From positions 1 to 28,528 of IMG/VR virus record IMGVR_UViG_3300009103_000124: DNA of 28,528 bases. One strand, given 5' to 3'. The notes under the pieces are model-generated. The model saw nothing but the letters and a program-made list of their open reading frames with translations, searched no databases and was not told where the DNA came from. The position numbers and the translations under genes are program-made. The DNA is from a virus. Positions 341 to 28,528 of the stretch are shown in pieces (the stretch's first letter is position 1; the number at the start of each line of letters is the position of its first letter).

Positions 341-769
341 TTAATAGTTTTTTCGTTTAAAATGTTCCCTTTCTCGCGCCTCTGCTTTCTCGTTTAGATA
401 CTTGCTGAACCACTCCATAATCTGCGATGAATCAATGTAGCTGTAGGCTCTACCATAGCGCCCCAGCCTTGCTTTCTTAAACATAATTTTCAAGTCTGCC
501 AATGATTCGTGCCTATACTCGGTCAAGAAGTCCTCACAAAATAATTCTATCTGCTCTTTCGACATATTTTCCTTGACATTAAACCCAGCTAAATTTCTGG
601 TAACCTCGGCGATGAAAACCATCACCACTTGTTGCCCCCCGAATTGTTTAATTTGCGACGAGATTGGAGGGTACTCTAATGCATCTTCAATCGTTAAGAC
701 CGAGGCGAGAGGAAATGTCTTTAGCACTTCCAACGAATTGCTCTGGTGTCTCGTAGGTTTGTTTTCCAT
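341..769 (-). CDS. hypothetical early protein
   Basis: 142 residues, not recognised. It is helical and charged in its C-terminal half (ending KAEAREREHFKRKNY), with a hydrophobic stretch around VVMVFIAEV near residue 50. The start at 769 lies inside the 3' end of the initiator-like gene, overlapping it by 83 bases in another frame. No later ATG would remove the overlap without cutting a third of the protein (the next is before VFIAEV). Sitting directly behind the replication initiator, it could serve in helicase loading or replication, as genes in this place do in other phages; this is inference from position only. Confidence 0.7.
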   Translation of the reverse strand: MENKPTRHQSNSLEVLKTFPLASVLTIEDALEYPPISSQIKQFGGQQVVMVFIAEVTRNLAGFNVKENMSKEQIELFCEDFLTEYRHESLADLKIMFKKARLGRYGRAYSYIDSSQIMEWFSKYLNEKAEAREREHFKRKNY

Positions 770-1442
770 TTTTCTTCTTTATTTGTTCGTTAAAAACCAC
801 CACGTATTTGATGCCCTCCTTATTCTTTGACCTTAGTTTTGGAATGCTTAAAAAATTGCGACACCAAAAATCGTCGGCGCGAGTCTTTTCTACTATCTCC
901 AAAATTAAGTTAAAAGGAACATTATCAATCCGATTAAGTTTGTCTATAACTTCAGCCCATTTCCATAGGCTCTTTTGCTCTGGAATTAAATGCTGGGGAA
1001 AGTGAACTAAACACCTCATAAGGCAATCGTAAACATCATTACCATATTGTTTTGTCTTGTTTTGTTTCGTATTGTCTTGTATTGTTTGTTCAACGGTTGT
1101 TGAGCGGTCGTTGGTTTTTCGTTGCGCCCTTAGTTCAGCTGAACGCCTCCCAGCAAGAGAATTCTTTTTAGACTTTTCCCCTATCTGTTCCATCTGCTCA
1201 TCGAGAAAATTAATTCGCACATAACCCTCGTCGTCTACCGTAACTATCTCACTATCAACTAGGTTATCTATTCCGTCTCCAAAATCTAAACGAGCATCTC
1301 GGAATAGCATCTCGCATCGCTTATGCCAATACTTGCAAATCAAGTCTATGAACATTGCCTTTATTTCGTCTGGCTGACGTTGAATCCTCCCGAACATCCA
1401 TTCGGAAGGCTCAAACATAAAAAATGGCAGTTCCTTAGCCAT
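687..1442 (-). CDS. phage replication initiator-like protein (Lin1244/DUF1376-like N-terminus)
   Basis: 251 residues. Residues 1-110 have the layout of the Lin1244/DUF1376-type N-terminal domain of phage replisome organisers: a start with aromatic residues (ELPFFMFEPSEWMFGRI), a helical DEIKAMFIDLICKYWHKR segment, and VRINFLDEQ followed by KKNSLAGRRSAELRAQRK. A polar linker (about 110-135, ending TKQNKTKQ) follows, then a helical C-terminal domain. In related phages this protein binds origin DNA and recruits helicase. The linker DNA contains a strict 5-bp repeat array next to iterons, separately listed, so the origin probably lies inside the gene, as in lambda O. It follows the recombination pair and overlaps the exonuclease gene by 8 bases. 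The family is inferred from pattern, not from a search. Confidence 0.7.
   Translation of the reverse strand: MAKELPFFMFEPSEWMFGRIQRQPDEIKAMFIDLICKYWHKRCEMLFRDARLDFGDGIDNLVDSEIVTVDDEGYVRINFLDEQMEQIGEKSKKNSLAGRRSAELRAQRKTNDRSTTVEQTIQDNTKQNKTKQYGNDVYDCLMRCLVHFPQHLIPEQKSLWKWAEVIDKLNRIDNVPFNLILEIVEKTRADDFWCRNFLSIPKLRSKNKEGIKYVVVFNEQIKKKNGKQTYETPEQFVGSAKDISSRLGLND
1046..1114. repeat. candidate replication origin inside the initiator gene (8 pentamers plus iterons)
   Basis: On the plus strand, positions 1046-1085 are eight consecutive 5-bp units of form NTTGT (one reads TTCGT). TTGTT follows at 1086-1090, then a G+C-richer repeated segment containing GGTTGTTGAG and CGGTCGTTGG up to 1114. The design, an A+T-rich unwinding tract next to iterons within the initiator gene, matches lambda-type and Gram-positive phage origins. 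A second module of the same design lies at 27461-27540, outside any gene, which argues that the DNA rather than the peptide is selected. Confidence 0.55.
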
Positions 1443-2253
1443 TGCTTTCTCCTATTAACCCCAACAACTCGTCAACGTAGTTTTGAGCTAATTTGACGCG
1501 ACTTTCGACTTCCTGTATAGCTTGACTACTATATTCGAAAGAAAATGCCTTAAATCGCTTGTAATCGGCTAATTCGCTGTATTGATAATCCGCTTGGAAT
1601 TCCTCAAACTGCTCTTTGTCGTTAACGTCTGTTCCCGTCCGAAAACAATGTGACCGATATTCTGACTCTACCAAATGCTGGGGAGTATCCATCAGCGTAT
1701 AGGCGAGGACATATACCTTCGTTTCCGTCAAGTGCATATAGCCTTGCCCTTGCCACCAGTAACTCTTTTCAGGAATCTCTGTTTCGAATATTGGAAAGGT
1801 GCTGAAGTCCCAACTATTTTTGGCGTCTATACACCTACTAGGAAGAACTATGTCGGGAGTGCCAGTTATAAACTCCCCTTCGTAATGTTTCGTATTTTTA
1901 AGCAACATCGGGTACCCTAATTGCTTCGCGATAAAGTCTATTGACTCGTCCTCCACGATTAACCCCTTGTCTGTATACTTGTTGCCCTTGAACGATTCGC
2001 GTTCGTATAGCCTTTCTTTGACCCATTGTTCGACATAACTTTTCGCCCCTTGTGGCAGTTTTGGGTTTTCGTGTGTCTCTATTAATTGGCTCAACTCTTT
2101 ATACATAAAAGGCGTCAAGTCCCTTGCCTTATTCGTCTGGGAATCAGCCTTTCTTTTTAGCAGTTCGTTCATCCTTGTGAACTGTTTTTCAGTTAGGCCT
2201 ATTTGCCCAGCCATTAACGTGCCTATCGCACTACATCTAATCTTAAATTTCAT
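1435..2253 (-). CDS. YqaJ-like PD-(D/E)XK exonuclease
   Basis: 272 residues. Expected to digest one strand of double-stranded DNA ends so that the partner annealing protein can load: the phage Exo/Beta or RecE/RecT type recombination pair. Motifs in order: an acidic residue in KGLIVEDESIDF (about 97-107), GTPDIVLPSRCIDAKNSW with P133-D134 and D143-x-K145 as the PD-(D/E)XK core, and YWWQGQGYMHL (165-175), the Q-x-Q-x-Y-M motif of YqaJ/lambda Exo relatives. The N-terminal 90 residues are helical. It is immediately downstream of, and overlaps by 11 bases, the annealing-protein gene, which supports the pairing. Length is normal for the family. Confidence 0.82.
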   Translation of the reverse strand: MKFKIRCSAIGTLMAGQIGLTEKQFTRMNELLKRKADSQTNKARDLTPFMYKELSQLIETHENPKLPQGAKSYVEQWVKERLYERESFKGNKYTDKGLIVEDESIDFIAKQLGYPMLLKNTKHYEGEFITGTPDIVLPSRCIDAKNSWDFSTFPIFETEIPEKSYWWQGQGYMHLTETKVYVLAYTLMDTPQHLVESEYRSHCFRTGTDVNDKEQFEEFQADYQYSELADYKRFKAFSFEYSSQAIQEVESRVKLAQNYVDELLGLIGESNG

Positions 2254-2917
2254 TGCTTTTCAGTTTTAAAATGTCTTCCTCGGAAATTACATATTTGGCT
2301 TCTAATTGTTCCACCGTTACTAACCCACTTCTTATTGCCTCTACTCCGTTGCTCCACTCCTTGTGTTTTGGGCTGAAAACCTCCTTGCCACCAGCGTCGT
2401 TCAATAGTCCAGAATAATCAATGTCGTTGACGTTGAGGTCTTTACCAAATAGCTTTCCAAACTTCTCAACGGCATCTTTGAAGGCGTACGTCTCTGATGC
2501 TGGGGCTGACATTTGGACTGCCGTACTTTTCATATTGTTAAATTCGATAGCCCCCGAACCCTTGTCAACTTGCAACGGTGAGCCCCCGACTCCATCGTTC
2601 CATTGTGTTTCTCCAGTTAGTGGGCAAGTAACATAAACCCTAACGATTGTCACGATGCTATTCGCAATCAATTCAACCGACTTAACTTCAACCCACCATT
2701 TGCCATAAATACGAGTTAGCATATACTCTAACCTTTCTCTCGGAATGTACTGGTAAGAAACCGTTTTGCCCTCGTTGTTCTTTACTGAAATAAATGGGTG
2801 TTTTTTCAACCACGCCTTCGGTGGGTTTTGATTCAGCAGAACGGTCAATCCAGTCTGCTTTTCGTCTTTGTTCTCTACCAAGTCTTTTAAGGTAGGAATC
2901 TTCGCAATCTTTGTCAT
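2243..2917 (-). CDS. Rad52/ERF-superfamily single-strand annealing protein
   Basis: 224 residues. Residues 55-165 carry the Rad52/ERF fold pattern: YIPRERLEYMLTRIYGKWW, then beta-strand pattern SVELIANSIVTIVRVYV, TQWNDGVGGSPL, and the diagnostic helix SETYAFKDAVEKFGKLFGKDL (Rad52-type AxxDAxxxxxxxFG). The C-terminal 50 residues are probably the variable interaction tail. It anneals complementary single strands during phage recombination or replication, with the YqaJ exonuclease encoded directly downstream. The start is preceded by AAAAACCAAAatt and a TAAATTTA box just after a terminator, so it may begin its own transcript. Which subfamily (ERF, Sak, Rad52_22) cannot be settled by eye. Confidence 0.75.
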   Translation of the reverse strand: MTKIAKIPTLKDLVENKDEKQTGLTVLLNQNPPKAWLKKHPFISVKNNEGKTVSYQYIPRERLEYMLTRIYGKWWVEVKSVELIANSIVTIVRVYVTCPLTGETQWNDGVGGSPLQVDKGSGAIEFNNMKSTAVQMSAPASETYAFKDAVEKFGKLFGKDLNVNDIDYSGLLNDAGGKEVFSPKHKEWSNGVEAIRSGLVTVEQLEAKYVISEEDILKLKSNEI

Positions 2918-4735: not shown

Positions 4736-5376
4736 TCCGTTAAGTTTTTGGTGAATCTCCAATAGCACATCGGGTCGTGCTCTGGAGTGCCGTTTTGGTA
4801 TCTGAACTCTTGCTCGTAAGATTTGTAATCGTATACATTCCAGTCTGGATTTTGTTGCTCGAACTCTTCAATCTCTGAAAGGACAAAGGCCTTGTTTTCT
4901 TTGAGTCTCTCTGTCCTTAATCGAACCGCCTTCTTAACGATTGGTGCGAGTTTCTTTTTGTCTACAAAACTCATTTCGGTTAGCTCACTAACATAATAAT
5001 AAAGTGAGGCATAATTTTTCAGTACTCGAACCGTGTTCCAATCCTTTTCTCGAAGAACTTTTTCAAAATCAAAACTTGCCTTGCTTAGAAACTTGAAGAC
5101 CCGTATCTGGGAATCTACCAGTTCGTTTATCTTGTGTAGGTACGACTTCAATTCAGTCGGCTTCAAATCGTCTAGCTTGTGTCCAGCGTCTTTGATGTGT
5201 CCCCCAAGGTATTCAGTCCATTCTGCTTCGTCCTTCTTGAAGGTATTATAAATTGCTTTGCGAGTATCTGGCTTCGTGCCCCTTTTATTCGCAATGTATC
5301 TGTGAATGAGGTACGTTAGATGCACCTTTTCTTTTAAGGTCAGCTCAGATAATTTGACCTTTTTTCGTGTTGTCAT
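4732..5376 (-). CDS. hypothetical helical early protein, first gene of the early operon
   Basis: 214 residues, highly charged and helical throughout (LKEKVHLTYLIHRYIANKR, VDSQIRVFKFLSKASFDFEK, IVKKAVRLRTERLKENKAF), C-terminus aromatic-rich (EHDPMCYWRFTKNL). No family recognised. It is the first gene after the late-region terminator and has a perfect TAnnTTTG element about 25 bases upstream, so it probably leads the early transcript. Start context is taaattATG with CAAACCAAAA a few bases before. Confidence 0.7.
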   Translation of the reverse strand: MTTRKKVKLSELTLKEKVHLTYLIHRYIANKRGTKPDTRKAIYNTFKKDEAEWTEYLGGHIKDAGHKLDDLKPTELKSYLHKINELVDSQIRVFKFLSKASFDFEKVLREKDWNTVRVLKNYASLYYYVSELTEMSFVDKKKLAPIVKKAVRLRTERLKENKAFVLSEIEEFEQQNPDWNVYDYKSYEQEFRYQNGTPEHDPMCYWRFTKNLTE

Positions 5377-5459: not shown

Positions 5460-5538
5460 CTTTCATAAACATTTAAAAACCAAAATGAATATCTATAAAT
5501 AGACACCCAAATATAATCTAATTAATCGAATAAAAAAA

Positions 5539-25206: not shown

Positions 25207-27273
25207 TCATTCTGTTGGGGGCAATATTTGTTTGTCAACCATTGCAGATGCCACGTCTTTTTCAAACCCGAATATCTCTTGTATAAGGCGCTCAGCTACC
25301 TTCTCCGACATTTGGTTGTTTGCCACTGCTATGTTTATGTCAATGATAGCTTGAACACCCCCTACGGTACCTTTCAGTTTTGCCTTGGCTTCTGCCTCAA
25401 TGTCTACGGGCGTTTCTATTTGTGCCCCAGTCTCACCGCCGAACGTCATCGCGGTAAATGATTCCCCAGCTATTCTTACCTTGTACTCGTCTATTTTTTC
25501 ATCGACAATCTTCTTTCTAACGGCATAAGGCAGTAGGTAAAAATTCTTGTCTTGTTCTGCATATTCTATTTCAAGTTCTTGCAAAATAGAATCAAAGTTT
25601 GACCACAGAATCAAATCCTTTTCACTCGCTTGTCCTTGGGCTTGTATGTAAACGATTTCCTCGGTAGACTTCCCAGCGAAAGGAATGTGCTCTTGTTTTA
25701 TCATAAACCGATTCAGCTTTTCTGGGCTGTCTGCCCATATTTTTTCAGCGATATCATTCGCGATTTCTGTACGAACAAAACTGGGGGCCTCTGACTCTAC
25801 GGCGTTCTTTAAATCTCTGAGCAAGGCATCGAGGCTCTTTAGCTTGAAATCTTTGGGGAATTTATGTACCACCATTAACCCATCCATATTGTCGGTAAAG
25901 ACTGCGGTCAACGATACTAGTTTTTCGTAGACAGAACTAAACTTTTGGGCGAACGGAAATAGGGTGTCATAAACAGACTGCATTTCTATTACCACTTCGG
26001 TGGCCGTGTTGGCTACGCTGTCTCGATTAAAGGTGTCAGAACTGAAGACGTCTTTGATAGCATCAGCCTCAAGCCTACGCAGATACTGTTCTTGGAACGT
26101 GGCCAGTTGTATGTCGGGGCCAGAATAATGCGTCAACTTCGCTAGGTCGTACATCATCTGAGGGTCTTTCGGAATAGGCAACAGCACGATATCTTGTGCC
26201 GATGTTTGTATCTGGTACCCCGAGCCTTTACAAGAACCGCAAAGGTTACCGTCATCTCTATATCCGTTCTTGCACCTTACGTTATCTTCTCCGTCACACC
26301 GCTTGACATATTGATACTTCTGAGGGAAGGCGTGAAGGGTCATTGTTAGGTCAAATTCCGAGCCAGTTTTCAGCGTCTTTTTCATTCGATTGACCGCTGG
26401 TTGAAACGGACTTACAAATGTTCTCCCGTCTGTTACTAAATCTCTTTTGTATCCCACCCTAATTCCTTGCACCATACCAGAATTTTGGTTGTAGATTTTC
26501 ACTAGAAACTTGTTGTCCTTGTCTAGAGCATAGGTAAACTGGTCAAACGCAACCTCACCAGCGTCTGTCAAGGGTATATCTGTGTATTCAGCTGACGCGA
26601 GTCTGTCAAGGGTAGTTATTTCTACTTGATAGTCCTTCAGATAAATGAAGTATTTATAGTCGGTTACCCACTTTGTGGTCTGTGGGTTAAATTGGTCGAC
26701 AACCTCTCTCAGATATTCTCGCCTAAATAAAATCCATTGTAAGATGTTGTTATCGTACTTGTAATCTAGCACGTCCGACGAGGAAACCTCTACGGGAAAC
26801 GGCTTGGCCTTCTCTGTCTCGGCATTAAACGAGTCGAACTCAACAAGGATAAAGGCATTCGGGTCACAAAACGATAGTTCAATGAACCGTGTGTCCATAT
26901 AAGAGTCGAGGGTGTAATCTCCCCAAAACCCATCTAAGATACCTTCCAGTTCTGCGACTTTTTGCGCCTTGTTTTGGCCTACAAATTCTATCGTCTTAGT
27001 CACGTTGTCCATTCTGCCCACCTTGTTGAATGGGGACATTATTTTTTCGGATATTGCTGGGAGAATCGTTTCGGTAATTTCCAGACGTTGTTCGAAGGCA
27101 TCTTTATCCTCTCTTTTCACAATCTGACGAAGCATCTTGGCAATGCCCTCACCAGTTATCAACCTTTTGTACTCATCGGATAGGTCTGTTACTCGCTCAT
27201 AATCTTGGTGCCTTACCTCATTCTTAATCGACAGACTCAGGCGTCTAATGGCTTGTTCAACTGAAAGGTGCAT
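25207..27273 (-). CDS. portal protein with an embedded zinc-finger-like loop
   Basis: 688 residues, first gene of the head cluster. Helical and mixed pattern of large portals (YMDTRFIELSFCDPNAFILV, DVLDYKYDNNILQWILFRRE, YLRRLEADAIKDVFSSDTFN). It forms the dodecameric ring through which DNA is packed. At 326-348, C326, C334, C345 and C348, with NGYRDDGNLCGSCKGSGY, look like a DnaJ-type zinc finger set into the portal body. Followed at once by the Mu-F-like gene, which supports the call. A good promoter lies 15 bases upstream of the ATG; the terminase genes expected before it are absent from this window. Confidence 0.8.
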   Translation of the reverse strand: MHLSVEQAIRRLSLSIKNEVRHQDYERVTDLSDEYKRLITGEGIAKMLRQIVKREDKDAFEQRLEITETILPAISEKIMSPFNKVGRMDNVTKTIEFVGQNKAQKVAELEGILDGFWGDYTLDSYMDTRFIELSFCDPNAFILVEFDSFNAETEKAKPFPVEVSSSDVLDYKYDNNILQWILFRREYLREVVDQFNPQTTKWVTDYKYFIYLKDYQVEITTLDRLASAEYTDIPLTDAGEVAFDQFTYALDKDNKFLVKIYNQNSGMVQGIRVGYKRDLVTDGRTFVSPFQPAVNRMKKTLKTGSEFDLTMTLHAFPQKYQYVKRCDGEDNVRCKNGYRDDGNLCGSCKGSGYQIQTSAQDIVLLPIPKDPQMMYDLAKLTHYSGPDIQLATFQEQYLRRLEADAIKDVFSSDTFNRDSVANTATEVVIEMQSVYDTLFPFAQKFSSVYEKLVSLTAVFTDNMDGLMVVHKFPKDFKLKSLDALLRDLKNAVESEAPSFVRTEIANDIAEKIWADSPEKLNRFMIKQEHIPFAGKSTEEIVYIQAQGQASEKDLILWSNFDSILQELEIEYAEQDKNFYLLPYAVRKKIVDEKIDEYKVRIAGESFTAMTFGGETGAQIETPVDIEAEAKAKLKGTVGGVQAIIDINIAVANNQMSEKVAERLIQEIFGFEKDVASAMVDKQILPPTE

Positions 27274-27287
27274 AATGAAAGTTTCAA

Positions 27288-27317
27288 CAAATCTAACGAT
27301 TCTATCGCAGTTTCAAA
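27288..27317 (-). promoter_or_regulatory. promoter of the portal/head operon
   Basis: On the minus strand TTTTG, an 18-base spacer, then TAGATTTG: a full match to TTTG-N18-TAnnTTTG, the Bacteroidota primary sigma consensus. It ends 14 bases before the portal ATG (27273), giving a very short leader. The best promoter match I found in the window. Confidence 0.65.
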
Positions 27318-27460
27318 ACCTTGCTGGGAAATTCTGATTTAATCGCATTGGCGCTCGATTTACGGCATTATCTTGGTTTGAACGACTGTTATGCTGCGCC
27401 AGTATTTTAAACCGCTCAAAACCGAGATAAGGCAGTCACACGAGGTTTATATAGTATTCT

Positions 27461-27540
27461 ATTGTCTTGTATTGTATTGTATAGTCTTATATTATATTGT
27501 TTGTTGCACATACGTTGAACGACCGTTGAACGTCCGTTGG
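27461..27540. repeat. second origin-like module (8 pentamers plus iterons)
   Basis: Plus strand: eight 5-bp units of form NTTGT or a near variant (27461-27500; the first four perfect), TTGTT at 27501-27505, a short spacer, then CGTTGAACGAC, CGTTGAACGTC and CGTTGG in tandem (about 27513-27540). The layout copies that at 1046-1114 inside the initiator gene, in the same orientation. Likely bound by the initiator; could be the main origin or an accessory site. Confidence 0.55.
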
Positions 27541-27544
27541 CCTA

Positions 27545-27562
27545 ATGCGAAATTTATCGCAT
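27545..27562. promoter_or_regulatory. inverted repeat, operator-like
   Basis: ATGCGA and TCGCAT form a perfect 6-bp dyad around AATTTA, next to the iterons and before the terminator. ATCGCATT half-sites also occur at 27341 and 9780. A repressor or initiator site is possible. Confidence 0.4.
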
Positions 27563-27590
27563 AAAAAAACCCCCCATCGCTGGGAGGTTT
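27563..27590 (-). terminator. Rho-independent terminator after the DUF932 gene
   Basis: Minus-strand hairpin AAACCTCCCA / TGGGGGGTTT (one G-U) with loop GCGA, followed by a run of T. It isolates the DUF932 transcript from the control region and the portal operon. Confidence 0.82.
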
Positions 27591-27611
27591 CTAAACATTA
27601 AAAATCGAGTG

Positions 27612-28493
27612 CTATGCCTTCACTGTCTTCTTAGCTTTCGCCTCGTTGTTAAGCATCCACTCTAGCACCTTTCCATCCACTCTCTCTCTATCCTCGGCTC
27701 GGTTGTTCAAGTCCTTGTTGTGGTTCAGCTGAAAATTAATCCCGTTAAAAATTAACCAGTCGGTGACGGGAGCCTTCAACTCTTTCGCCTCTTTCATTAT
27801 GGTTTGTTGGATTTCCTCAACCATTTTCTTCGGAGTGCCTTGCACCGCATTAAGCACTTCTTCGAGTCTGTCAGCCCACTTGCTAACCTTTCTGTCAGCT
27901 AGTACCTCAAACGGCTTAATAACGTTCTTAAAGGTTTCTTCCAAGTTGTCAACAATGTCCAGCGCCATTTCCTCAATCGCTTCGGCTGTCAAACTGGAGG
28001 TGTGTTTCTGCGACACAAGTGTATCGTTCGCCCATCCCATCATTCCGTTTGAGCAAACCTGTCTCCATACTCCGTGAGTGATAGAAAATTTCATACAACC
28101 ATCGTAGCTGTGTCGAATCGAAAGTCTCTGCTCTACCACGTCTTTCTTTCCCCCGATGCTGTGCCCTTTACCTTCAAGGACATAATCTACATAAAATCGG
28201 CTGTAATCCCAATGTCTGTAGGTCGCCTTAAACTTTACGCCCTGCTCTTTCAAAACTTTCTCAAACGGCGTCAAAATGTCCTTAATCGGAACAAGTGAAT
28301 AACTCGCCGAGCAAAAGTTTATCAACTTCGGGTTGCCCTCGTTAGTAGTTGCCACGACAACCGAGGCTAATCTGCTGGAGGTCATTTCCATTTTCGCGTC
28401 ACCTAATACGCTGGTTCCAGCTACTTTTTCTACTGGGAAAAACAATTTCGTTTTACCTACTTTCGTCTCTCTGTTGCTAATTGCATTTTTCAT
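27612..28493 (-). CDS. DUF932 phage/plasmid protein
   Basis: 293 residues. The core RLSIRHSYDGCMKFSITHGV, then WRQVCSNGMMGW (121-154), is the hallmark of DUF932 (S-Y-D-G ... R-x-V-C-S-N-G). The family is common in phages and plasmids, usually in early or replication regions; its molecular role is not settled. The C-terminal half is helical and charged. It has a separate terminator, so it ends an upstream transcript, probably an early or replication operon outside the window. Start: GAAACCAAAA and taaattATG, like the early genes. Confidence 0.82.
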   Translation of the reverse strand: MKNAISNRETKVGKTKLFFPVEKVAGTSVLGDAKMEMTSSRLASVVVATTNEGNPKLINFCSASYSLVPIKDILTPFEKVLKEQGVKFKATYRHWDYSRFYVDYVLEGKGHSIGGKKDVVEQRLSIRHSYDGCMKFSITHGVWRQVCSNGMMGWANDTLVSQKHTSSLTAEAIEEMALDIVDNLEETFKNVIKPFEVLADRKVSKWADRLEEVLNAVQGTPKKMVEEIQQTIMKEAKELKAPVTDWLIFNGINFQLNHNKDLNNRAEDRERVDGKVLEWMLNNEAKAKKTVKA

Positions 28494-28528
28494 AATTTAT
28501 AAATTTTGGTTTCTACCGACAAAACCCC

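Follow-up and report, generated by a model that had tools for sequence, protein, structure and literature searches.

Detailed knowledge of how phage initiators open DNA, and of why a phage should have two origins, comes from very few phages (lambda and SPP1). To our knowledge, an arrangement with two copies of an origin has previously been described in detail for the Bacillus phage SPP1 only. SPP1 has two origins of similar organization, oriL within the initiator gene (gene 38) and oriR in a late intergenic region, and both are bound by gp38 (G38P) (PMC6316719, PMC3485210). In a model proposed for this phage, gp38 at oriR blocks forks and triggers a switch to concatemer synthesis (PMC6316719, PMC3485210). 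In lambda, the iterons lie inside gene O and are followed by a 40-bp A+T-rich region that is opened by the O protein (PMC5043065). A third described system is the DnaA-trio/DRE of Bacillus subtilis, in which short repeats stand beside initiator boxes and the strand with 5'-TnnT-3' is bound by DnaD, which holds it through pairs of TnnT (PMC10201434).

The DNA analyzed here, called the window, is a linear virus record of 28.5 kb whose likely genes all lie on the minus strand. As at the SPP1 origins, repeats and an AT-rich element are found inside the initiator gene (module A), and a second site of the same plan is found in a late-region intergenic spacer, between a DUF932 gene and the portal gene (module B). 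By initiator protein, the nearest named relatives are phages of Cellulophaga, Flavobacterium, and Leeuwenhoekiella, and the host is probably a member of the Bacteroidota. The initiator gene (687–1442, minus strand) encodes a DnaD-like/lambda O-like protein of 251 amino acids that matches phrog_29280 (2.6e-16), the DnaD-like helicase loader family phrog_2514 (3.6e-13), the O-like family phrog_391 (1.4e-6), and the “replisome organizer” family phrog_4880 (E 1.6e-5); its residues 75–229 are 39% identical to the DnaD-like helicase loader of phi18:3. The initiator had no sequence match in the PDB, its AlphaFold model, predicted alone, was poor (pLDDT 42) and was not used, and a query against viral contigs gave no confirmed relative. 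Beside the initiator gene are an adjoining exonuclease gene (1435–2253, minus strand; phrog_5715, 2.5e-47; RecE-like phrog_434, 1.2e-7) and a gene for a probable Rad52-like single-strand annealing protein (2243–2917, minus strand; PF04098, E 7.7e-4, with 19.8 bits just under the 20.3 cut-off), which together are what recombination-driven replication needs.

Module B (27446–27544) lies in a gap of 338 bp (27274–27611), the longest non-coding gap of the window as judged from the list of open reading frames. The DUF932 gene (27612–28493, minus strand; PF06067, 4.1e-13; TIGR03299 below cut-off) is upstream of the module and the portal protein gene (25207–27273, minus strand; phrog_7376, 3.2e-17) is downstream. 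A terminator-like hairpin with a T-run (27570–27587, minus strand) would stop transcription of DUF932 ahead of module B. The placement of this array in a non-coding spacer, made in a preliminary description of the sequence, is thus confirmed; the separation of 26 kb from module A given there is correct along the linear fragment but need not be the distance on the complete, possibly circular genome. Rfam and tRNA searches gave no match, and GC skew along the window had no turning point at module A or B, a signal that is masked because all genes run one way. The end of the window (28493–28528) lies inside a terminator-like hairpin upstream of DUF932, and a sister record (L003, 1–141), which extends ∼106 bases beyond the window end, also ends in the same hairpin.

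Both modules have two parts. In module A (1046–1129), eight pentamers (1046–1085, minus strand), the predicted unwinding element of the main origin, encode QDNTKQNKTKQ in the initiator and are joined by four 11-bp iterons (1086–1129, minus strand) with GTTS cores on the plus strand at 1088, 1099, 1110, and 1121. In module B, the predicted DNA unwinding element consists of eight pentamers (27461–27500, minus strand) that read ACAAN/ANAAN on the minus strand and NTTNT on the plus strand, and four 11-bp iterons (27501–27544, minus strand), the predicted initiator binding sites, have GTTG cores on the plus strand at 27503, 27514, 27525, and 27536. Three extra degenerate pentamers of module B (27446–27460, minus strand) read TTTAT ATAGT ATTCT on the plus strand. 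The modules have the same orientation, with iterons first and pentamers second along the minus strand, and they align without gaps in a single register of NTTNT pentamers, a 2-bp TT spacer, and GTTS at +0, +11, +22, and +33. This alignment upholds the common plan and orientation described initially, and two details had to be revised. The count of eight 5-bp units in each array holds for module A but is inexact for module B, which has ∼11 because of the three further NTTNT-type pentamers on the left. Matching the arrays on CGTTGG puts them one unit out of register, because CGTTGG is unit 3 in module A and unit 4 in module B.

Identity between the modules is moderate (31/40 for the pentamers and 26/44 for the iterons). 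The conserved features are the GTTS core and the spacing; outside the core, iteron identity is modest. This common core and spacing is consistent with one initiator binding the repeats of both modules. Periodicity at lag 11 was significant in module B (p = 0.0005) and in module A (p = 0.003). Tandem Repeats Finder (TRF) reported 11.2 copies in module B at 27450–27504, and the module scored 23/24 against ANAAN x8.

The two modules stand alone in the window. The 15-mer ATTGTCTTGTATTGT has two exact occurrences, at 1071–1085 and 27461–27475, in agreement with the 15 identical bases first noted, and allowing up to two mismatches gave six matches, all in the two arrays (0.13 expected; shuffle maximum 1). 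Against NTTGT x8, module A scored 31/32 and module B 29/32; elsewhere in the window the score did not exceed 22/32, and 60 dinucleotide shuffles gave at most 24/32. Strong lag-5 periodicity was likewise confined to modules A and B. All four matches to GTTG-N7-GTTG-N7-GTTG with at most one mismatch fell in the modules (0.18 expected; shuffles never reached four), and neither the core ladder nor the pentamer run was present in the rest of the 28.5 kb. The window is a fragment of the genome, and further modules may lie outside the contig.

The 50-bp stretch of lowest duplex stability in the window is 27447–27496, in module B, and the pentamers of module A are at the 14.5th percentile; in the same register, the pentamer run of module B is longer and less stable than that of module A. 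Other intergenic stretches of very low stability (94–143 and 5489–5538) carry no iterons and are probably promoter regions. Module B is not an assembly error of a single contig, because an identical module B is carried by IMGVR_UViG_3300009130_000174, which is 99.9% identical over 9.3 kb. We rejected the idea that module B is a duplicated segment of the initiator gene, since the match does not extend into the flanks.

The same anatomy marks initiator genes of other phages. In ∼14 unrelated phages, iterons that differ in sequence from phage to phage, usually with a period of 10–11 or 21–22 bp, run directly into a similar row of pentamers within a DnaD-like or O-like initiator gene. The complete initiator gene was read in six phages whose initiators are related or comparable, and in four of the six (morran9-1, Arctus_1, phi19:1, and Nekkels_1) it contains, immediately after the iteron region, the best ANAAN x8 run of the sequence searched. 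The 11-bp ladder before the pentamers reached significance in two of these four (Arctus_1 and phi19:1); it was marginal in morran9-1 (p 0.06) and did not reach significance in Nekkels_1. The element is not universal, because clear pentamer runs were lacking in the initiator gene of phi18:3, which has four 11-bp iterons, in that of tant8-1, which has neither ladder nor pentamer run, and in the TP901-1 rep gene, where the best score (18/24) was tied with other places. The iteron ladder was single, and located in the initiator gene, in all nine other sequences compared, which were complete or nearly complete records and a few long fragments; the pentamer run occurred once in each of the other sequences checked, with no second lag-5 array. 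The window alone among the sequences examined has two ladders and two pentamer runs, with an iteron common to both. The conserved register, together with these in-gene origins, supports the initial suggestion that module B is a bound element of DNA built on the plan of the in-gene array; module A would be the standard origin of this phage class, and module B an additional, late-region copy upstream of the portal gene.

Pentamer-only patterns, with no iteron in the query, were scanned over the 2.9 million viral contigs of IMG/VR. ACAAN x6 was found in 67 stretches; many of these were simple repeats, and about ten lay in initiator genes. The heterogeneous 19-mer ACAATACAAGACAATACAA was found in 10 stretches, seven or eight of which followed repeat ladders, mostly in initiator-like genes, and a 21-mer of module B matched nothing but this phage and two unrelated in-gene modules, of which one was present in two contigs. 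Uniform pentamer repeats do occur elsewhere in other genomes, but the heterogeneous string matches mainly initiator genes. When 10 of the proteins were compared with PHROG, the families matched by eight of them included replication-initiation, DnaD-like, or primosomal families; the top family was sometimes one of unknown function. In 15 of 19 modules, A and B included, a repeat ladder (p ≤0.003), usually with a period of 10–11 or 21–23 bp, directly precedes the pentamers. The shared pentamer looks like a widespread phage unwinding element, and a pentamer run after a ladder is a possible general marker of phage origins. The combination of pentamers with GTTGAACG had no match in viral contigs.

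In most of the unrelated initiator genes reached by the pentamer probe (L101, L102, L108, L046/L026, L024, L076, L035, L037, L040, L042, and L045), the ACAAN run follows immediately on a repeat ladder. A different gene, whose protein begins like MEITGKVHCFFEQSGTFKNEFIKLGIPAEDYDIQNNFG (L013, L017, L020, L022, L027, L030, L034, L043, L050, L073, and L077), contains 6–12 ACAAG units, the number of which shifts its reading frame, and its repeat looks like a phase-variable pentanucleotide repeat. These ACAAG runs in rumen-type contigs were accordingly rejected as origins. In a phage of 69% GC (L041, ∼5037–5070), an ACAAG-type run follows GTTCG-containing sequence in apparently non-coding DNA, possibly an origin outside the initiator gene, although its ladder is not significant. 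Queries with the portal, DUF932, and capsid-candidate proteins in viral contigs recovered only the near-identical record; portal and capsid-candidate queries found nothing in bacterial genomes, and in phage records the portal gave distant matches only and the capsid candidate none. No diverged relative with an orthologous module B was thus found in the viral contigs, bacterial genomes, and phage records searched.

We consider it probable, at roughly 0.7, that the phage's own initiator has in module B a second site of origin type, which would serve as an SPP1-like late origin and/or a fork roadblock. The terminator-like hairpin that precedes the module in the longest non-coding gap also counts for an origin-type reading. 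In the mechanism that we propose, the initiator would bind the four iterons, whose 11-bp phasing would place its N-terminal half on one face of the helix, and strain in the bound complex, by bending or twisting, would open the adjoining NTTNT pentamers. The initiator or a loader partner would then capture one opened strand, holding the strand of the NTTNT repeat, and the replicative helicase would be loaded at the opened pentamers. Forks from module A that reach module B would meet bound initiator there, and module B would act as a late origin and/or as a roadblock that stalls these forks, contributing to a switch to recombination-driven concatemer synthesis. Initiator binding, strand opening, and origin firing or fork arrest at the modules are all inferred.

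The preliminary description had left three alternatives for the second array: a second origin, a handcuffing site, or a site controlling the adjacent promoter. The best fit is a second origin or a fork barrier formed by bound initiator, because the melting element has been retained in module B along with the binding sites and because SPP1 sets a precedent; handcuffing and promoter control fit less well. Iteron plasmids use such iteron sites for control, and the iterons of module B are of the same type as those of module A, so that module B could be a control site (titration, handcuffing, or repression) rather than an origin, sequestering initiator or pairing with module A to limit firing, its pentamers being incidental. 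We regard this as unlikely. A melting element would be superfluous at a pure binding site, yet the pentamers of module B, in the register of module A, exceed those of module A in length and fall below them in stability, and even the deviant units CTTAT and ATTAT remain within the NTTNT consensus of other phages. That the pentamers of module B would melt more easily than any other 50 bp of the window favors an origin over a simple binding site.

It is less probable still that module B is a late-transcription switch, at which bound initiator would turn the portal/head operon on or off and couple it to replication. A Bacteroidota-type promoter-like TTTG-N18-TAGATTTG (27288–27317, minus strand) does stand in the stretch that separates module B from the portal gene, immediately before the portal start, but it is a weak candidate because ∼1.7 matches are expected by chance in the whole window, and the iterons are ∼220 bp upstream of it. 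An isolated iteron-like TTGAACGACTGTT (12/13; 27378–27390, no strand assigned), also between module B and the portal gene, would fit such a switch as a possible extra weak site or may be a chance match. The switch leaves no role for the pentamers. Least probable of all, and in our view very improbable, is a non-functional remnant or low-complexity drift. Slippage can expand pentamer repeats, and other viral genomes do contain uniform runs of ACAAG or ACAAA at unrelated sites. In the window, by contrast, ladders and pentamer runs occur at two places only and not at the many unrelated places that drift had been expected to produce; the pentamers are heterogeneous rather than identical and stand next to a four-unit 11-bp ladder in the phase seen in module A, and outside the module there is no homology to the initiator gene.

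Beyond this phage, we tentatively propose, at somewhat less than an even chance, that phages with DnaD-like, Lin1244-like, DUF1376-like, and O-like winged-helix initiators share an origin code. The phage-specific iteron ladder would be the address, and the common NTTNT array would be read by the initiator as a sequence-specific element of single-stranded DNA, a phage counterpart of the DnaA-trio/DRE. The iterons differ by phage group (GTCAC, TGTCCC, GCGAACGGAT, GTTCG, AATGC, and CCGAAA), as expected of a phage-specific address, whereas these groups have the pentamer in common. As part of this proposal, the module would be portable and able to work outside the initiator gene, because this phage has two complete modules. 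No description of the pentamer element was found in the freely accessible literature searched, and its novelty is therefore provisional. A second natural copy, free of coding constraint, shows the essentials of the module: 11-bp iteron spacing, the spacer, and NTTNT-type pentamers. With the recurrent pentamer, origins can be located simply in the genomes of uncultured phages, and whether phage initiators capture a strand in a sequence-specific way becomes directly testable.

Taken together with described systems, the in-gene origins of flavobacterial phages (Arctus_1, morran9-1, phi19:1, and Nekkels_1) resemble the window in having related initiators and, mostly, 11-bp-spaced repeats, with ANAAN pentamers after them at a corresponding place in the gene; they differ in having one module per sequence searched, other iterons, and pentamers of the AGAAG/ATAAG type. 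Module A shares with lambda the iterons in the initiator gene beside an A+T-rich run of ∼40 bp, and in the lambda segment the best ANAAN x8 run starts directly at the end of iteron 4. Lambda, however, has one origin, its iterons are ∼19-bp inverted repeats with no 11-bp ladder, and its A-rich region is less regular (19/24). The likeness to the DRE is that the phage initiator is DnaD-like and each consensus NTTNT unit contains TTNT; at least two TnnT motifs stand on one strand, as most pentamers of modules A and B contain TTNT, although this could easily arise by chance in AT-rich DNA. The period is five here and three in the DRE, the initiator is phage-encoded, and single-stranded DNA binding here is putative. 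With SPP1, the window shares direct repeats and an AT-rich element at both sites, an unwinding element in SPP1 and a predicted one here, with one site in the initiator gene and the other in a long late-gene intergenic region near transcription signals. SPP1 also encodes an exonuclease and an annealing recombinase (PMC6316719, PMC3485210); here the exonuclease is clear and the Rad52-like match is below the cut-off. SPP1 belongs to another host group (Bacillus subtilis), the two are likened by published organization and not by sequence, and the position of module B directly upstream of the portal gene is this phage's own feature. The best reading of the two modules is that they form an SPP1-like pair, with module A as an oriL-like in-gene origin and module B as an oriR-like late origin or fork-barrier site.
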